A stretch of 64,000 bases of DNA from Acytostelium subglobosum LB1 (lineage: Eukaryota; Evosea; Eumycetozoa; Acytosteliales; Acytosteliaceae): NCBI RefSeq assembly GCF_000787575.1, contig NW_012236497.1, positions 1 to 64,000 on the forward strand. Reading direction: 5' to 3'. The notes beneath the pieces are model-generated. The model did not search any database, had not been told where the DNA came from, and worked only from the letters and a program-made list of their open reading frames with translations. A program made the position numbers and the translations under genes. Shown in pieces: positions 29,673-46,646 of this stretch (position 1 is the stretch's first letter; each line of letters opens with the position of its first letter).

Positions 29673-30837
29673 TTATCTATTCTTCTCTTCAAGCATACCC
29701 TTTATACCATCGACGTGCATAGCACCAACGACAGCCAGCACTCTGTTGCCCTTGGAGGATAGGATTGATTTGGTGATGGACCTCTCACGATCCAACAAAA
29801 ATGCATCGTATGTCATTGGCAACGAACGTTGGAATGTTGATCTTATCTCTTGTAGATTGGCATTGGTCAACACCTTTTTGAATGCACTCTCCAACTCTTC
29901 CTCTGTGACTGCTGGTTTGCTCAGCTCCTCCACCAGTGGTGCCAATATATCGTTGACCCTAGACCAATCTGCCATTTTAGATTGGTCCATCTTCATGTTG
30001 GATGCCATGTTCATGATATTTGCCATGTTGAGTGCACCAAGTCCTCCCATCATTGATCCGCCAACCATTGGTAGCAACTCTGTCTTTAGGCTCTGTGCTA
30101 AATTACTCATTGTTTCCTATTAAATAGAGAAGAGTCAGTTAGTCTTGGATCGTACGAACGTGTTGAAGCATCGCCACATGTTCTTACATTAACTGGAAGA
30201 TCACCTAATACAATGTTTGCCTTTAGTGCATCAGCCTCGTTGATGGCAAACTTGAACTCAAGACCAGGAACAATACCCATCACTCTAAATGTATTGTAAT
30301 AGTTCTTGATCAATATCTAATAATAACAACAACAACAAAAACAACCAATATGTTAGAAAGAGAACAGTAAACTTGTCAACAACAAGATATACATACATTA
30401 AGAATATTACCGGCATTGAGTTGACCTGATCTTAGTCCAGCCATTATCTCTGCGAATATACTGGTCAGTGGTTTAGACTGTTGGTATGGCTCAATGTTGC
30501 GAACATTCTGTTCAGACTTTAACTTGTCGAATCGTGATTGACACAGCTCCAGTACTACAGTGTCGGGCTTTACATCGCGAATGAACTGCTTGACCTGCTC
30601 AGCACTGCGCTTTGAGATGTGTGCTGTGCCAATGACAAAGACATCCTTGTTTGAATGTAGGTCTCTATGATAGAATATTGGATCATCATTGACATTACGT
30701 GACAATGATGTAGTTGAATATTTGTTGTTGTATTTGTTGTTGTAGTTGTTGTGAAGGGAAACAACATTGATATGTTGTCGGCATAATAAGAACCTCGGTG
30801 TTGTTTGACCAAGGTATCTAATCGGAGAAGTTATCAT
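29673..30837 (-). CDS. TraB domain-containing protein (TRABD-like)
   Basis: Three minus-strand exons in phase, 30837-30397, 30316-30188 and 30116-29673 (337 residues from the Met at 30837; an in-frame codon at 30891 would add 18). The N-terminus (MITSPIRYLGQTTPRFLL) is basic and may be a mitochondrial signal. TraB/PrgY marks are FVIGTAHISKRSAEQV, VVLELCQSRFDKL, DAFLLDRERSITKSI and a C-terminal VVGAMHVDGIKGML. The GTAH and GAMH histidines and the ELC glutamate are the conserved putative metal/active-site residues shared with Tiki-type proteases. The domain is interrupted by Met/Asn-rich sequence. Human TRABD is little characterised; mitochondrial membrane location is inference. Confidence 0.85.
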
Positions 30838-33072: not shown

Positions 33073-33687
33073 TTATTCCTTTCCACCAAATGATCTAATG
33101 AGAGCTTCAAGATTTGTGAATCCCTTCTCGATGGCCCATGTCAAGGCGGTCTTCTTGTGGTTGGCATCTGGGATGTTGGGATCGGCTCCAGCCTCGAGGA
33201 GTGCACGTGCGATCTGTTGGTAGAGCTCACTGTCATTGTCATAGTAGACTACCTCGATAAGGGCCGTCCAGCCAAGACGGTTCATGTGGTTGACGTCCTC
33301 ACGACCATCGGCCAACAGCACACGTACATTCTCCAAATGACCCTTCTCACTGGCGGGGATGATACAGTTGCCACCGTATCTGTTGAACACCTTGTAGTTG
33401 ATATCGGTCCTCTTGAGCATCAACTTGAGAATCTCTGTCTTGCCGTGAGCGCCAACAAACAGATAGGGTGAGTCTTGAATGGCGTCCTGCTTGTTGATAT
33501 CGGCACCGGCGTCCATGAGCAAAGCGGCCAACTCTACATTGTAGTTGTGACAGGCTACCATCAATGGAGTCTCTTTCTTCTCGTTGAGTTCATCTACAAC
33601 ACAGCCTGGTGTTGCCAACAACTGTTTAACCAGCTCTACCTTGCCACTCTCTACTGCTGTTAATAAACTACCTGATTGATACTCCAT
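33073..33687 (-). CDS. Ankyrin repeat protein
   Basis: Single exon, 204 residues, almost entirely ankyrin repeats: ETPLMVACHNYNVELAALL, DAGADINKQD, SPYLFVGAHGKTEILKLML, GHLENVRVLLADG, GWTALIEVVYYDN, ALLEAGADPNIPDANHKKT, ALTWAIEKGF. There is no signal peptide, membrane segment or extra domain. Short all-ankyrin proteins of this sort are also common in bacteria, so transfer is conceivable, but the sequence alone does not show it. Partner unknown. Confidence 0.75.
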   Translation of the reverse strand: MEYQSGSLLTAVESGKVELVKQLLATPGCVVDELNEKKETPLMVACHNYNVELAALLMDAGADINKQDAIQDSPYLFVGAHGKTEILKLMLKRTDINYKVFNRYGGNCIIPASEKGHLENVRVLLADGREDVNHMNRLGWTALIEVVYYDNDSELYQQIARALLEAGADPNIPDANHKKTALTWAIEKGFTNLEALIRSFGGKE

Positions 33688-33952
33688 ATCTATATTTGTT
33701 TGTTATCTATTAATCCGACGAAGATGATGTTCGGAACTGAATGAACGACACATGTCATAGGTCATATCTTATTGTTAATGTCTCTGTCGGGTTTGATTGG
33801 GACCACCATACACAAAGATATTTATGTTTCAAAGACAAGTCTACACAAATAATCATAGCTTTTTTTCAACAAACAAAGATGACTTCCCCTGGGTGAGTGA
33901 ACACTCTCATAACGAAACTAATCAATCTTTGAATGAACATACATCATATATA

Positions 33953-34033
33953 TTGTCCAGTTAGTTCAAGTCGTTGTGTATTTAATTTCATTTCGATTAT
34001 TTGGAATTTTTCAAATTAATTTGGAAGTTCACT
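33953..34033 (+). repeat. Left terminal inverted repeat of the transposon
   Basis: Begins TTGTCCAGTTAGTTCAAG and ends near TTTGGAAGTTCACT. Its outer 24 bases are the exact reverse complement of the right end; scattered mismatches and a one-base length difference occur further in. A TTCA microsatellite (34056-34086) lies just inside it. Confidence 0.9.
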
Positions 34034-34161
34034 CATATGGTAGGGTGATCGAGGCTTTCATTCATTCATTCATTCATTCATTCAATGATATTGGATGTTT
34101 CAAGTGAGGTAATGGATAATAGATATTGATTGAAATAGCTTTGCTTTACGGGCACTGTTTA

Positions 34162-35327
34162 TTATCTATTGTAGCACTTGTGACACCAGTTGAGTATTGT
34201 AGTAGGATCGCTAGAATACTTGTTGAACGCGTTTTTGATTGTGTCGAGGAAGGATGCAGTTCTGTTCTTATCTCGGCACTCTCTCTTCATCATCGCGAAC
34301 AACAGTTCGATGATGTTGAGCTCAGGGCTATAGGTTGGCAAGAACACCAACTTGACATTGATCAAATCAAGCATCTCCTGGATGAGAGGGAGGCGGTCCC
34401 TCTGTGTGTGGATACTGGCATTGTCGAGCACGATGTAGGTATTGGGTCGGATGTAGTCAGCCTCCATGGCATTGATGATGAATGAGCAGAAGGTGATGCT
34501 GTTGTTGGTGTCACCCTCAGTATGGTCCTTCATCCTCGCGTAGGATCCGTGGTGGATTGAGATCATGGCCATCAACGAGAAGGACTCCCTGAAGGACTCT
34601 CTGTTGACGCGAATGGGTTGCACTCTGCCTCTAGGGGCCAACAGCTTTCTCTTCCAACACTCTATTATTCGACATTGAACAAACATATTAGCGACAGCAT
34701 AATAGTGCAGTGTTTGTTTGAGTTGTAAGACTTACTCTTGGACTCAAAGGTAGATTCATCAAGCCAGTAAACAGAATCAAGATCGACTTGGCTGATCCAA
34801 TGACAGAAGTAGACATATCTCTCTAGGTTCTCCAAGGTGAACTTCTGATGCTGGACTGTGATTGGCACCTTCCACGAGAACATCAGGTGTTCTGAGATGA
34901 CGTTTCGTATGTATGATCTGCTGAACTGGATGTCCTCGACCTGAGTGTTGACATGGTCAACTATCTCTTTGAGACTCTCTGGTTGCGCCTCGAGTATGTA
35001 TCTATGGAGGAAATCCTTCAGCTGCTCAAACCTGACATCATCAAGCAGAGAGTATCGTTTTCCACCATGAAGAAGAGGATGATACGTTCCTTGAGCACTC
35101 AATTTCTTGCGGTGATAGTAGATCGACGACTTTGACTGGCGAGTGAGTGATGGGTTGACTTGTATAATATTATTCTGAATAGTGAATGCTGCGGCAACTC
35201 CATGTGTGTTTGAGTAAAGTGCTGTAAGCAACTTTGATCGTAGTCTCTGAAGATAATGATGGTGTCCACTTCGAGAGCCTTTGAACTGCTTTCTCATTCT
35301 AGTCCTCTCTATTCTTTGTCTATCCAT
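34162..35327 (-). CDS. DDE transposase, IS630-Tc1-mariner superfamily
   Basis: Two minus-strand exons, 35327-34736 and 34661-34162, joined in phase (363 residues). The first 155 residues are basic and helical, fitting the DNA-binding helix-turn-helix part (SKLLTALYSNTHGVAAAF; QLKDFLHRYILE). The catalytic triad is D190 in YWLDEST, D277 in IVLDNASIH and E316 in SPELNIIELL. By my count 38 residues separate the second Asp and the Glu, against 34 in classic Tc1. The intron sits between the first and second Asp, inside the catalytic core. No breaks are seen, so the gene could be functional. The stop lies about 130 bases inside the left repeat. Confidence 0.9.
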
Positions 35328-35533
35328 GTCTTGTGTGTGTTAGTAAATGTTGTTGTGAATCAAATGATTCTCAACTGGCACATCAACAGTGCAACCAAAG
35401 ATCAAATTTCGGCGCCAAAATTTAAAATATCCTACGAGCAGTTCAGAGACGTCCTCATCACAAAACATTCTCTTCATTGTGATCACCTGACATTTACACA
35501 GTATACATATAAACAATATACAGATAGACAACG
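35328..35533. promoter_or_regulatory. Shared start region of the two transposon genes
   Basis: The 206 bases between the two divergent start codons must hold both promoters. A TATA-like ATACATATAAAC lies near 35502-35513, upstream of the plus-strand gene. No other element can be assigned from sequence alone. Confidence 0.4.
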
Positions 35534-36325
35534 ATGTCAAATAAAGAATACGCACCAAAGTACAACCATGATCTCTACAAGGACTATAGAACTAAGCTCG
35601 ATGGGCTCTTTCCCAATGACGAAAAAGGCAGTGTAGAGTATATAAACGAGGCCATTAGGAAAATTGACGAGGCGGTAGGAATATACTCTTGTGGTGTATG
35701 CCATCAACCAGGCAGATGCCGCAATTGTACCAACACTTGTGTAGATTGGTTTTGCTGCTTGCACAAGTCACATGGCCCGATTCTTAGAATGTTCTTGACC
35801 AAATACAAGGCCGATTTGTTAAAGGCACTCCGACCCGAATTGGACAAGATAAGAGCGGATGTAGGCGATCTTGGGCAGCTCAAGGCAAGCACCATTGTCA
35901 ATCACAGCCACTTCCAGATGGCCAAGACGGTCTTAAATGACAAGTAAGTATGTATGATTGACCTTGGACTTTGACACTTTAACTGACATGGTGGTCACAG
36001 ATCACAGATGATTGTTCTCGACACTCGAAAAGCACCAATCAGTCTCGATGAGGAGCCCGCTCGTCCTGTCAAGAGAGCCAGAAAAGAAGGGCCCCTCGAT
36101 CTCAATCAGTCAGACTACACCACTGAGGAGCTGAGTTTCCACAAACTCCAGGAGGTTGTGGAGTATTATGAGCACATCGCGCAAATAATGCGCTTCCACA
36201 TCGAGGAGCATCGCATCGGACTGACACGGCTTGACACGTACCTCCAGATGCTCCAGAGACAAGAGCTTGCTCCCTACATCGGAAAGACTCCAGTGATACA
36301 TCCAAATCGGACGAATAAACAATGA
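35534..36325 (+). CDS. Second transposon gene: Cys-rich protein of unknown family
   Basis: Two exons, 35534-35943 and 36001-36325, in phase (donor GTAAGT, acceptor CACAG; 244 residues). Residues 53-80 hold a tight Cys/His cluster: C53-x2-C56-x5-C62-x2-C65-x3-C69-x4-C74-C75-x-H77-x2-H80, likely one or two zinc sites. A basic patch KRARK near 160 could be a nuclear signal. The C-terminal half is helical and charged (LQEVVEYYEHIAQIMRF, then LTRLDTYLQMLQRQEL), suggesting oligomerisation. It has no DDE core and no helix-turn-helix that I can see. Lying inside the inverted repeats and divergent from the transposase, it is probably part of the element: an accessory DNA-binding or regulatory protein, or a captured host gene. 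No known family is recognised. Confidence 0.8.
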
Positions 36326-36394
36326 GCAAGTGTATTTGCCAATTACTATTATCTGTACAAGCTACCTGACTGACTGCATGATGCTGTGTTTTGC

Positions 36395-36474
36395 AGTGAA
36401 TTCCAAATTAATTATGAAAATTCCAAATAATCGAAATGAATTGAATTACCCAACGACTTGAACTAACTGGACAA
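36395..36474 (-). repeat. Right terminal inverted repeat of the transposon
   Basis: Reads inward from CTTGAACTAACTGGACAA at its outer end; mirror of the left repeat. The joined flanks without the element would give an uninterrupted AT-rich intergenic site with a single TA. Confidence 0.9.
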
Positions 36475-36557
36475 TATTGATATACAGATAAAACACACAG
36501 ATATATTTATATTATAAGCGTATATAACAACAAATAATACACAAACAATAACATAGA

Positions 36558-39500
36558 ATGAAGGAGGAGTTTGCCAAGTTCTTATTATCCAAAGGATACT
36601 ACCTGACTGCCTTGGAGTTCTATCAGGAGATGCTTGAGGATGATGGTACAGAGATACAAGAGTTGGTCGATCACTTCAAATCTGTAATGTCAATGCCCTC
36701 TACACAGGACCCAATAAGAGTTATTAAAGGTAAGGTATCATAATGCATGTTGTTGTTGTTGATAGTCATGATGTTAATATTGATAATCAAACATAGAGAG
36801 AAAGAAACAACAACAAACATCATCACCTCCTCAACCAGAGAGTGAAGCGATTAGGAGTAGGGATGACAGGATATCATTGTTGGAGTATGAGTTGAGACAG
36901 TCAAGGGATGATATAAAGGAGTTAAAGGATCAGATCAAGAGGAGTAAGCAGACTCCTGTCATATCGGCCAGTGACGTCAAGGTGATAAGTGCTCCATCAT
37001 CGTCACCAAAGGAGATGGGTGGTGCTGTTCAGTCGGTCGATCAAGTCTCCAAGGACAAGATCAAACCACACGAGAGGAAGATACTAAACTATCTGTTTAG
37101 GAGGTACCTCACGACAAACAGCTATCCATTGACATCGGTTACATTCTCTGAAGAGGTAAGAATTCATGTCTTCAATTCAGATGTATAGAGACATGTCTAA
37201 CATCTACGACTACTACTATTCAGAGTCAGGACAATGCTAGGAACTGGTCAGACCTACAGATGAATCAGGCAGAGCCTCCATCTCTTTTGACCATCTATAG
37301 ATACTTCTTTGAGAATGGTGACTCTGGAGTACAGGGCGTACTCACAAAGACAATGGGTGAGATCACAAAGCTCAAGAAGGAGATTAGCGACAGTGAGGTA
37401 CATTGGAGACAGTTGCAAAAGGAACGTGATGATCTGGCACAAAAGAACAAGGACTATGAGAATATCATTGATCATCTCAAGAAGAATCAACTTTCATCCT
37501 CCACTCTTGCCTCTACAAGCTTGTCAACTACCACCTCGACAACAACTTCTACAACAACCCCAGCCACAATCACTCAGGCACAGAAACAACAACAACAACA
37601 AAAGACAACAACATCAACAGATGATAATCTATCTACGATGCGAATCACCTATCGAGCCCTGGTGGAGAAGCGTAGACAGACAGTGGCCTTCCAGATTGTC
37701 TCTAATGATGATGAGTCAGAGGCTAGCATGCGAATTGCAGAGGAGGTGGAGAAGTTGCGTTCACACGGCTCTGATCAACTCAACAAGATGGTGTCAGTCA
37801 TTGCCAGTTCCCTGCCACACATCCTGCCAGGTGTTTTGCTCAACAAGCGTGAGGAACTGATACCACTGATCCTCATTGTCATCTCTAACCATCCAGAGGA
37901 GACCACTCGTTTCTCCCTCACCAAGCTCCTGTTCAATCTAATCAAGAAGCCCAACGAGTTCCAGCGTCACGCCATCATGAAGGGCTGCATGGCATTGGCC
38001 TCCATCATTGGACCACAGCGCACAGAGACCGAGATTCTCAGTCAGTGTTGGGAGCAGCTGAGTGAGAAGCACCCAGAGCGTAGAGTGCTCGTGGCTGACT
38101 CTTGTGGTTGTCTGGCACAGTTTGCCAGCACAGACCTGCGACTGTCGTTGATTCTTTCAATCCTTCAACAGCTGGGTCAGGACAAGAGTCCCTTGGTGCG
38201 TGTTGCCGTCACCAAGAACTTCTCGTTGCTCATCAACTTTTTCGACTCCACCGACAAGTACAACCAAGTGGAGGAGTCCTTCAAGGCATTGCTCTATGAC
38301 GCTGAGCCCGAAGTGTCCACTGCCACCAGGACTCATTTCCTACCATCACTTGCCAACTGGACCGATCTCCTCGAGGCATTGAATCCAAAGCTTACAACAA
38401 TGTTACTGTCAGAGATGTACACTACTCTACATGTATGTATATTTATAACGTTCCAACAGGTCATACCATTGGACATAGAGCTAATACATCAAATTTCTTT
38501 CAGAAATATGCCAATCAAAAGGAAGAGTTTAAGATTCCAGAGCAAGATGTTATCAAGATTCAGCATTTAGTGGCTTGCTTCATTGATATTATTCCAAGGA
38601 TACACCAATCAATGATATCATCATCACCTCTTATAACTGTATGTCTAAAGAAATGAATATGATTGTATAACGTTGTACTAATCAGATTAATAATAATAGG
38701 AAAAGGATGCCAAGATCATAGAGGCAGAGTATGACAGACAAGAAGCACTCTATCAATATCAATTGAATGAGACCAGACTAAAGCAGATACATTCCACTGG
38801 TAGTGATGTCAACAACAACAACAAAAACTCAACCACTGCTGCTACCAATGCTGTGGATCCTGCTGCAGCATCATCATCATCTTCATCCTCAACAACATTG
38901 TCATCAATCACAAACTCAATTCGAATGTCTATACTTGGCAAACAAGAGGTTGCCAAACTACATGCTCAGTTTGATCAATATCTACTGTCATTGGTCTCCA
39001 ACGATATGTCATCGTCCAAGTGGCCAGCATTAGAGTGGCTATGCACAGAGTTTATCACCAAGTTGCTCAGCATCATCTATTGCATACCACTGAGGAACTC
39101 CCGACTGGTCACATCATTCTCCAAGGCACTCAACACTCTATGCACAGAGTTTGGACATGTGTTTACAAAGAGGATCATCAACAATGCATTCCACAAGGAG
39201 CTCCAAAAGGATAACAGAGCCAGTATGTACATCCATACTTTGCTATTATGGACTGCGCTAACATTCACTTTACAAACAGCACAACCAAAGAAGTATAGAC
39301 TTTTACCATTCTTTACAGCAGGTGTACTGACATCGTTAGAGTCAGCAGAGTTGAACACCTTTTTGAGCGATATCATTGTTCAAATCTCAATCGAGGAGAG
39401 AGGATGGGATCATAGTCACATTCCATCGCTGGTCAAGTGTATAGAGTTACTGTGTGGCAATGACATTGACAAGAAGAAGGAGATTGGTGATGTACTATCA

Positions 39501-41870: not shown

Positions 41871-42814
41871 TGCTTGAGATGTTTAAAGAATGATTGAAAC
41901 TAAATAAACGAACGACAAAACTCTAAAAACTGTATTTGTGTGTTGTCCAAAATCAAGTGAGCTCAATCAAAGTTGACAGTGTGCTCTGGTGCTGTGTTAT
42001 TTATTTGTTACTGTTGTTGATGTTGGTGGGCCTTTAGAAGTATTATTGAGTACTCAATAATTTTCCAAGTGTCTAAACAATCTTGGAATATCATCAATCA
42101 TGAATATCAATGCTTAATCTTTATAGAATAGAGAATAGTAACCAGTTTGTTTCAAACAATTAGAACTCTTATCTGTAACACTCCCTAAATGATCATTTCC
42201 TGGTCATGTGATAGGCAAAGATAACAAGCATATGTGTTATGTGTGATAGAGTCATAATGATTGATTCAAGTTCAAATAAGTAGAACCAGTGTTCAACCAC
42301 TACTTTGTTCAATTTCATAGCTTGATGTCTTTGTCTATGGATGACGAACACAATGACCAGCACCATAAATTTGTTTTAAAATTTTAAGCCAACAACAGTA
42401 ATCAATCATCACAAAATTCCTAAAATGGAATGAAATGAAATTGCCGGCTCTAATCCACCCAAAGACAACAACAACATCCGAATCGTAACTGCACCAATCC
42501 TCTTCTCTCATAGACATATATCGATGAACCCGTACCACCCTCTCACATGTCTACCATAGCACACAATATAACAAATAATAATAATACTTACACATAGATA
42601 CATACATACAAATAAGTGTTAACTCACCAACTATTAATTAATTACTTACTTTTCACCCACACACACGCACCACAAACACACATTGCGATTGCAGCTTCAT
42701 CTTCAACTTCAACCACCATCGTGCAAACTTCACCATCTTATCTTATATCTCCCTTATTTCAACACGAATTATAACAACAACTAAACTATCTATCTATAGT
42801 AGTAGTAATAGAAA
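41871..42814. other. Intergenic, divergent promoter region
   Basis: No gene seen. It lies between the starts of the Era gene (minus) and the acyl-CoA oxidase gene (plus). It holds a perfect 20-base palindrome, ATTATTGAGTACTCAATAAT, at 42042-42061, CA-rich tracts near 42590-42690, and an AT-rich leader before 42815. Confidence 0.5.
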
Positions 42815-45144: not shown

Positions 45145-46646
45145 GTGATGCACAACATGGACAGAGAGGCAAAGCGACCAAACAACAACGATCTACAACA
45201 TCCACAACAACAACAGTAACAAATAAATAACACAACACACACACTCTTTCTTCTTCTTTGATTGAATTGGCTCACTTGGTTTTGGTCATCAACACATACA
45301 CCTGCTCAATCAAAAAAGATATTTTAGTACAAATGATCAAAGAAGGGTGTGGGGTGAGACCCTCTGATTGGGCAATGTTGTTGTTGTTGTTGGGCACGGT
45401 GCAATCAATCAACCACACACACCCCTCGGATCTTTATGACCCAATCCGCCTCCCCCTTTCTGATGTGGATATCAATTCATTCATTTGACAATAGAATTTA
45501 GTGAACAGTTAGTGATTGATTAATTAATTACGTCTATCTATCTATCTACTTAACAAACAAACACACACATACACAATCATTATTATCATCTCAACTGCAG
45601 AGACTCTTCAATCTATTTATCTCTATCAAAACCAGCAGACACACACTACCTTTAAAGGACAAATATTTCTAATCACTCAATATATTGTAAGTGTAAAAGA
45701 CCAACCACGACCTACTCCTACAACAGCAACAACAACATTGATGTCTTTTGTCTACACCATTGGTACACACACACAGCCTACATACTAGTCTCACAACATC
45801 CAACAACAACAACAACGTTTCAATTCAATCTGTTATCCACACCTATAAATATAGGTCAGGTGTGTATGTTGTTGTTGTCTTTGTGTTTATATCTGTATCG
45901 ATGGATAAATCGACCCAATATACGCACAACAAGTGTTGTGTCGTTGTTGGGATTGATTGATGATATCATCATCATCATAATTAATACTCACTTTGAAATC
46001 CATCATCTAATTATCTATCTGTGATATAAATATACGCACATTGACCGACAACAGACCCACCCGACATAGTACACCCATTATATTTTGGACAAAGGTGATC
46101 GTATTATTGTTTTTGTGTGTGTGTTTGTTAGTGTGTGTTAATCTCCATATATTAATTAATTAGTCTACGACAATCACCATCCATCCAACACCATCCACTA
46201 TCCATCCATCCATCCATCACATAAATCCAATTAATTACACCCTTTGCTACCAATAACAACGATCACCACTCACCAAAAACACACATTTACACTGTGAGTA
46301 ATAGAGGGCAATCATGCCCAATGGTGGTGCCTTTGTCTGGATAATCCAATCTATTATCATCATCAACATCATCCATCATCATCCATCATCATCATCATCA
46401 TCATCATCACTCATCATCATCCATCAACATCATCACTACTGGACCGCGGAATCAATCATTATTACAATTCCTTACAACAACATCATTTGGATTTTACTAT
46501 GCCATAGTGTTTATCCATTATCCAAACGACACAAAGCTCACTACTCTTTATTATTAGTACTATAGAAGAGATATTTATTTATTTATTATTTATTTATTAT
46601 TTATTTATTTATTATTGGATTTAAAATAATTCCTTGTACAAAAAAC
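45145..46646. other. Long intergenic region of simple repeats
   Basis: About 1.5 kb without a supported gene. It contains CA tracts, a pyrimidine-rich 45,530-45,660, a run of CATC/ATC repeats at about 46,350-46,430 and a TTTA/TTA repeat at 46,570-46,617. Short frames at 45258 and 46314 have repeat-driven composition. A region this long before the next gene suggests an extended promoter or 5' leader. Confidence 0.5.

Follow-up and report, generated by a model that had tools for sequence, protein, structure and literature searches.

A 2,522-bp element occupies positions 33953–36474 of the window, the whole 64,000-nucleotide stretch of Acytostelium subglobosum DNA analyzed here. Its terminal inverted repeats (TIRs), each of approximately 80 bp, enclose two divergent reading frames of two exons each, designated genes A and B. 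The features of the element are as follows.

33951..33952, no strand: TA outside the left end, read from the sequence; presumed target-site duplication, with AT as the alternative
33953..34034, plus strand: left terminal inverted repeat, with ATTTGGAA at offsets 47 and 67, from repeat search and alignment
34162..34661, minus strand: gene A exon 2, encoding triad residues D277 and E316, with the stop codon at its low end
34662..34735, minus strand: predicted gene A intron of 74 nt (GTAAGT...TAG), between the codons for the first and second catalytic Asp; frame open after removal
34736..35327, minus strand: gene A exon 1, encoding D190 and a helix-rich N-terminal region presumed to bind DNA
35328..35533, no strand: spacer of 206 bp between the start codons, containing TTTGGCGC; putative promoter
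35534..35943, plus strand: gene B exon 1, encoding a Cys/His cluster (residues 53–80)
35944..36000, plus strand: predicted gene B intron of 57 nt (GTAAGT...CAG), from the open frame after removal and a shuffle test
36001..36325, plus strand: gene B exon 2, encoding the NLS-like KRAR from residue 161 and the C-terminal region
36393..36474, minus strand: right terminal inverted repeat, from repeat search and alignment
36475..36476, no strand: TA outside the right end, read from the sequence; presumed target-site duplication

To define the ends of the element, the whole window was searched for inverted pairs with arms of at least 24 nt separated by no more than 9 kb. The arms belonging to the element (33950–34026 and 36401–36477, 77 nt each and 91% complementary) were the longest of the 96 pairs found. 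Gapped alignment of the TIRs from the first element base inward gave identity at 76 of 84 columns with the outer 24 bases exact, bearing out the repeats of about 80 bp claimed in the initial annotation. The outer 23-mer, with up to three mismatches allowed, occurs in the window only at the two element ends (0.00 occurrences expected from 100 shuffles). TA is present outside both ends, as had also been claimed, at what is a single insertion with AT-rich flanks. This pair is presumed to represent the target-site duplication; a 2-bp AT duplication, which would extend the element by one base on either side, fits equally well. Two copies of ATTTGGAA lie 20 bp apart at identical offsets in each end, an observation that counts once since the ends are homologous, and these copies are possible transposase binding sites. 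Immediately internal to the left inverted repeat are seven perfect copies of TTCA (34057–34084).

No further copies of the element were detected within the 64-kb window by tblastn or with the TIR pattern, and Rfam gave no matches between positions 30000 and 40000. An 18-base core of the TIR was matched exactly at two loci in the viral_contigs collection (L167 and L168). Both depart from the TIR at the very next base, neither has a match to A or B below E 1, and the two matches were taken as chance. The anatomy and coding content of the locus support its assignment as a structurally complete IS630/Tc1/mariner-type transposon, of which one copy is known here.

Gene A (35327–34162, minus strand) encodes a protein of 363 amino acids after predicted splicing; removal of the intron leaves a single open frame, whilst its retention gives 220 amino acids. 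Matches exceeding the curated cut-offs were to DDE_3 in Pfam (5e-23) and to IS630 in NCBIfam (1.3e-30), and DDE_3 was the sole DDE family matching in Pfam at E ≤ 1. A Pfam match to eIF-5_eIF-2B (0.019) was under the cut-off and was set aside. D277 and E316 are separated by 38 residues, a DD38E arrangement rather than the 34-residue spacing of DD34E/Tc1 or DD34D/mariner. As the predicted intron separates D190 from D277, an unspliced product would lack D277 and E316, and the whole triad would be encoded by the spliced mRNA only. On the basis of these matches gene A is placed among the IS630/Tc1/mariner DDE transposases.

Relatives of gene A numbered 85 in viral_contigs and at least 424 in genome_contigs, and the best 80 were taken from each; these collections consist of viral and prokaryotic contigs and thus yield IS630 homologues, not further copies of the element. 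When gene A was aligned with 14 bacterial or viral-contig relatives, D277 and E316 were invariant and D190 nearly invariant. Catalytic spacing, from a pattern applied to 36 of the 160 fetched relatives, was 34, 36 or 37 residues in 28 cases, was not found in six and was implausible in two. The best match among those listed from genome_contigs was 28% over residues 182–363 (4e-12). Plasmid records matching gene A numbered 379, every one with less than 60% identity and none covering 80% of the protein. Single-sequence searches of viral_contigs with genes A and B produced no relatives: one gave no match to the pattern, and the other gave five stretches that matched it, none of them a relative. 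Gene A formed a long branch in a 26-row tree, with weak placement (support 67/66).

A profile built from gene A and its 14 relatives matched the Sleeping Beauty transposase (4.7e-13), SETMAR (1.3e-4) and, weakly, Mos1 (0.0073) in the PDB, where the sequence of gene A alone gave no meaningful match. The structure model for exon 1, where members of the superfamily carry a paired-like bipartite DNA-binding domain, was mainly helical, with a mean pLDDT of 64.0. Its top fold matches in the PDB were the paired domains of Pax6 (E 0.42) and Pax5 (1.1), with Tc3 ninth (5.4), and none of the 25 matches reached E ≤ 0.001. Gene A probably carries its own DNA-binding region. It did not match either of the two simple NLS patterns scanned, and its basic N-terminus alone may be sufficient for nuclear import.

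The 206-bp spacer between genes A and B is presumed to act as a two-way promoter. On its minus strand, at 35412–35419, is TTTGGCGC, described here as E2F-like from its resemblance to the E2F consensus. The window holds four occurrences of the pattern TTTSSCGC where 1.45 are expected, and 7 of 100 shuffles hold at least as many. Tdd-4 transcripts were reported to be up 25-fold in D. discoideum without its Rb orthologue (PMC3386910).

The left neighbor of the element is an ankyrin-repeat gene (33073–33687, minus strand). The right neighbor begins no later than position 36558, and an open reading frame downstream has a HEAT match. A LisH/RELCH-like identity for this gene was not retained; Pfam analysis of its first exon gave two matches below cut-off, neither of them LisH. 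A candidate host first exon at 33879–33892 (ATGACTTCCCCTGG, donor GTGAGT) would join in frame to position 36557 and encode MTSPG-MKEEFAKF. The corresponding host intron would be 2,664 nt including the element and 140 nt without it. If this candidate exon is right, the element may lie in the first intron of the host gene rather than between genes, and the gene could tolerate the insertion. The G+C content of the window is 42%; values for four dictyostelids, derived from published A+T contents, are 45.0, 22.4, 32.0 and 33.8% (PMC4334915), A. subglobosum being the one closest to the window. Elsewhere in the window, related inverted segments of approximately 95 bp were observed at about 41931–42023 and 45204–45300 (local score 97, where none of 200 shuffles exceeded 28). 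The stretch between them holds an acyl-CoA oxidase domain, and the segments may represent an inverted duplication of a promoter or the ends of another element.

Gene B (35534–36325, plus strand) encodes 244 amino acids after predicted splicing. Removal of the intron again leaves a single open frame and its retention gives 137 amino acids, in agreement with the two divergent intact genes, each with one phase-correct intron, of the initial annotation; for both genes splicing is a prediction from sequence only. Cys and His residues are at positions 53, 56, 57, 62, 65, 69, 74, 75, 77 and 80, and the density of seven Cys in 23 residues was matched by 5 of 1,000 shuffles. KRAR is the match of gene B to the simple NLS patterns. 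No significant relative of gene B was found in Pfam, NCBIfam, PHROGs, the PDB, viral contigs, phages or plasmids. A near-match to Pfam SPRING1 (18.5 bits for the whole protein and 20.8 bits, E 0.00043, for exon 1, against a cut-off of 22) was not accepted because it spans the Cys-rich stretch and is perhaps driven by cysteines. Pfam DUF6315 (0.061) was under the cut-off and was set aside, and readings of the cysteines as a B-box or as Fanzor-like were dropped as the corresponding Pfam matches were absent. The structure model of exon 1 (mean pLDDT 40.5) was of no use.

Gene B might be no gene at all and instead a long open frame arising by chance within an ordinary one-gene transposon. Such a reading would accommodate the failure to find a homologue and the codon evidence, which is weak. 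The synonymous codon usage score of gene B (−0.082) lies below those of all 25 other open reading frames of at least 200 codons in the window (0.037 to 0.216), some of which are perhaps not genes, whilst gene A (0.105) falls inside their range. In codon composition all four exons of genes A and B scored 0.075 to 0.153. None reached the 5th percentile of the host training chunks (0.156), and relative to eight held-out open reading frames (0.16 to 0.28) they were lower or just at the border. The score of 0.075 for gene B exon 1 was also less than the wrong-frame 95th percentile (0.098); the other three exons exceeded this value and fell short of the 99th (0.181). Single open reading frames of at least 137 codons were present in 27 of 2,000 shuffles of the B region, and of at least 105 codons in 172 of 2,000, so that the exons of gene B are less striking taken singly. 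However, the longest one-intron frame in the half holding gene B has 244 codons, and in dinucleotide shuffles analyzed on both strands this length was reached in 0 of 1,000 with the consensus donor GTAAGT, 0 of 1,000 with GT[AG]AG and only 2 of 1,000 with the lax donor GT[AG]. Together with the dense Cys/His cluster and the NLS-like motif this makes a chance frame very improbable. In our judgement gene B is in all likelihood a real gene with a codon usage foreign to the window.

The locus is best interpreted, with a probability of roughly 0.6, as an autonomous-looking cut-and-paste transposon of the IS630/Tc1/mariner type in which the gene B protein would assist or regulate transposition. Should gene B instead be a host or foreign passenger captured by a one-gene Tc1-type transposon, it would have no part in transposition. 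Its codon usage, which departs from that of the window and is also unlike that of gene A, points in this direction, and Mariner elements are on record as carrying captured genes, among them those for Fanzor, endonuclease and methyltransferase (PMC3627910). The compact divergent layout, in which the genes fill the space between the TIRs around a 206-bp spacer, fits a co-adapted unit at least equally well, and we regard capture as unlikely, although it carries real weight. A further reading, compatible with the others for gene B, is that the element is immobile and retained as one copy, with A and B perhaps a co-domesticated pair. Consistent with this, no second copy was found within the 64-kb window, A. 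subglobosum has a table entry of one DNA transposon (PMC4334915), and recurrent co-domestication of PIF/Harbinger proteins has been reported (PMC9710019). However, 64 kb is far too little for copy number to be judged, and the exact outer 24 bp of the TIRs are in keeping with an element that inserted recently or can still move. We regard immobility as improbable, more so than capture.

In the preferred reading of a transposon assisted or regulated by gene B, sequence supports the coding potential of gene A, and the remaining steps are those expected from the family. The shared spacer would drive transcription of both genes, followed by splicing and nuclear import. The gene A protein would use its helix-rich N-terminal region to bind the ends of approximately 80 bp, and its DDE site would excise the element and insert it at TA. 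Gene B, read oppositely from the common spacer, would encode a nuclear and probably metal-binding protein, whose simplest role would be to target the transposase to the nucleus or the element ends in the manner of PIF/Harbinger ORF1. The NLS-like KRAR in gene B and the lack of a simple NLS match in gene A suggest this role weakly. As gene A, unlike the Harbinger transposase, probably has a DNA-binding region, the analogy may fail, and a regulatory or a passenger role is equally conceivable for gene B. With one copy seen, both mobility and the association of A with B rest on a single locus.

The architecture, a transposase gene and a second gene back to back and both apparently split by introns, is unusual within a very common transposon class. 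It is conceivable, if doubtful, that the element represents a new amoebozoan IS630/Tc1-type (DD38E) lineage with a transposase completed by splicing and a divergent nuclear zinc-binding partner unlike known accessory proteins, a Harbinger-like division of labor of independent origin. A dependent two-protein Tc1-type element, if true, would provide a test of the repeated origin of helper proteins, and an intron between catalytic residues, if spliced, would tie transposase activity to splicing. The present value of the locus is as a clear, testable lead resting on one copy.

Amongst known systems, the bacterial IS630 family shares with the element the NCBIfam IS630 model matched by gene A and has no gene B. 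Bacterial IS630 elements are without spliceosomal introns. Tc1/mariner elements are recorded as scarce in Amoebozoa, one survey listing just two (PMC7325037), and the DNA transposases of D. discoideum are reported to have no significant similarity to known transposases (PMC5633606). DDT and Thug elements are named in a D. discoideum repeat survey (via PMC5633606 and PMC4559204). No dictyostelid element of Tc1 type with two genes was found described in the literature covered, which excludes Repbase and most subscription papers, and PMC4495683, PMC3408717 and PMC9977792 added nothing about amoebal two-gene elements.

A single transposase gene is the rule in the Tc1/mariner group (PMC7731502, PMC8533490), in accordance with the initial annotation. 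Its description of a complete element with two divergent intron-bearing frames also stands; the suggestion of an undescribed family is tempered by the multi-gene Tc1-type elements already on record in ciliates and viruses, and its proposal that both products are made and kept under selection is likewise a hypothesis here. Ciliate TBE, Euplotes Tec and Sardine/Thon/Anchois elements, like that described here, combine an IS630/Tc1-type DDE transposase with additional genes. Oxytricha TBE elements have three ORFs (PMC4724952) and Paramecium Sardine up to four, one of them a tyrosine recombinase (PMC3464196), compared with two here. Anchois was discovered via Pfam DDE_3, and its transposase ORF holds a potential intron, as is predicted for gene A, but it is 3.6 kb in length with three ORFs, two of them extra, and TIRs of approximately 22 nt (PMC3464196). 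Intruder (IT) elements share the DD38E spacing between the second Asp and Glu and the presence of TIRs, whereas they are 1.5–1.7 kb with a single ORF and have been reported from animals only (PMC7731502). Virus-borne Mariner elements can encode three proteins, and the Fanzor-bearing Mariner elements PGv-1 and PUl-1 resemble the present element in having a Mariner-type transposase and a second protein, and they show TA duplications, which are presumed here (PMC3627910). Gene B differs from Fanzor in being of 244 amino acids only and in showing no Pfam match at E ≤ 1 to OrfB_Zn_ribbon, the C4 feature of TnpB/Fanzor.

PIF/Harbinger elements likewise have two independent genes, for a transposase and a helper, the latter role being a proposal for gene B. 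The PIF/Harbinger transposase belongs to a family different from IS630/Tc1/mariner, and gene A matches DDE_3/IS630 rather than the Harbinger type. In PIF/Harbinger transposition depends on both element-encoded proteins, ORF1 and the transposase, the transposase has no obvious DNA-binding domain, and nuclear localization of the Harbinger3_DR transposase required ORF1 (PMC2836001). The target duplication of these elements is 3 bp (PMC2836001), as against the 2-bp TA or AT presumed here.
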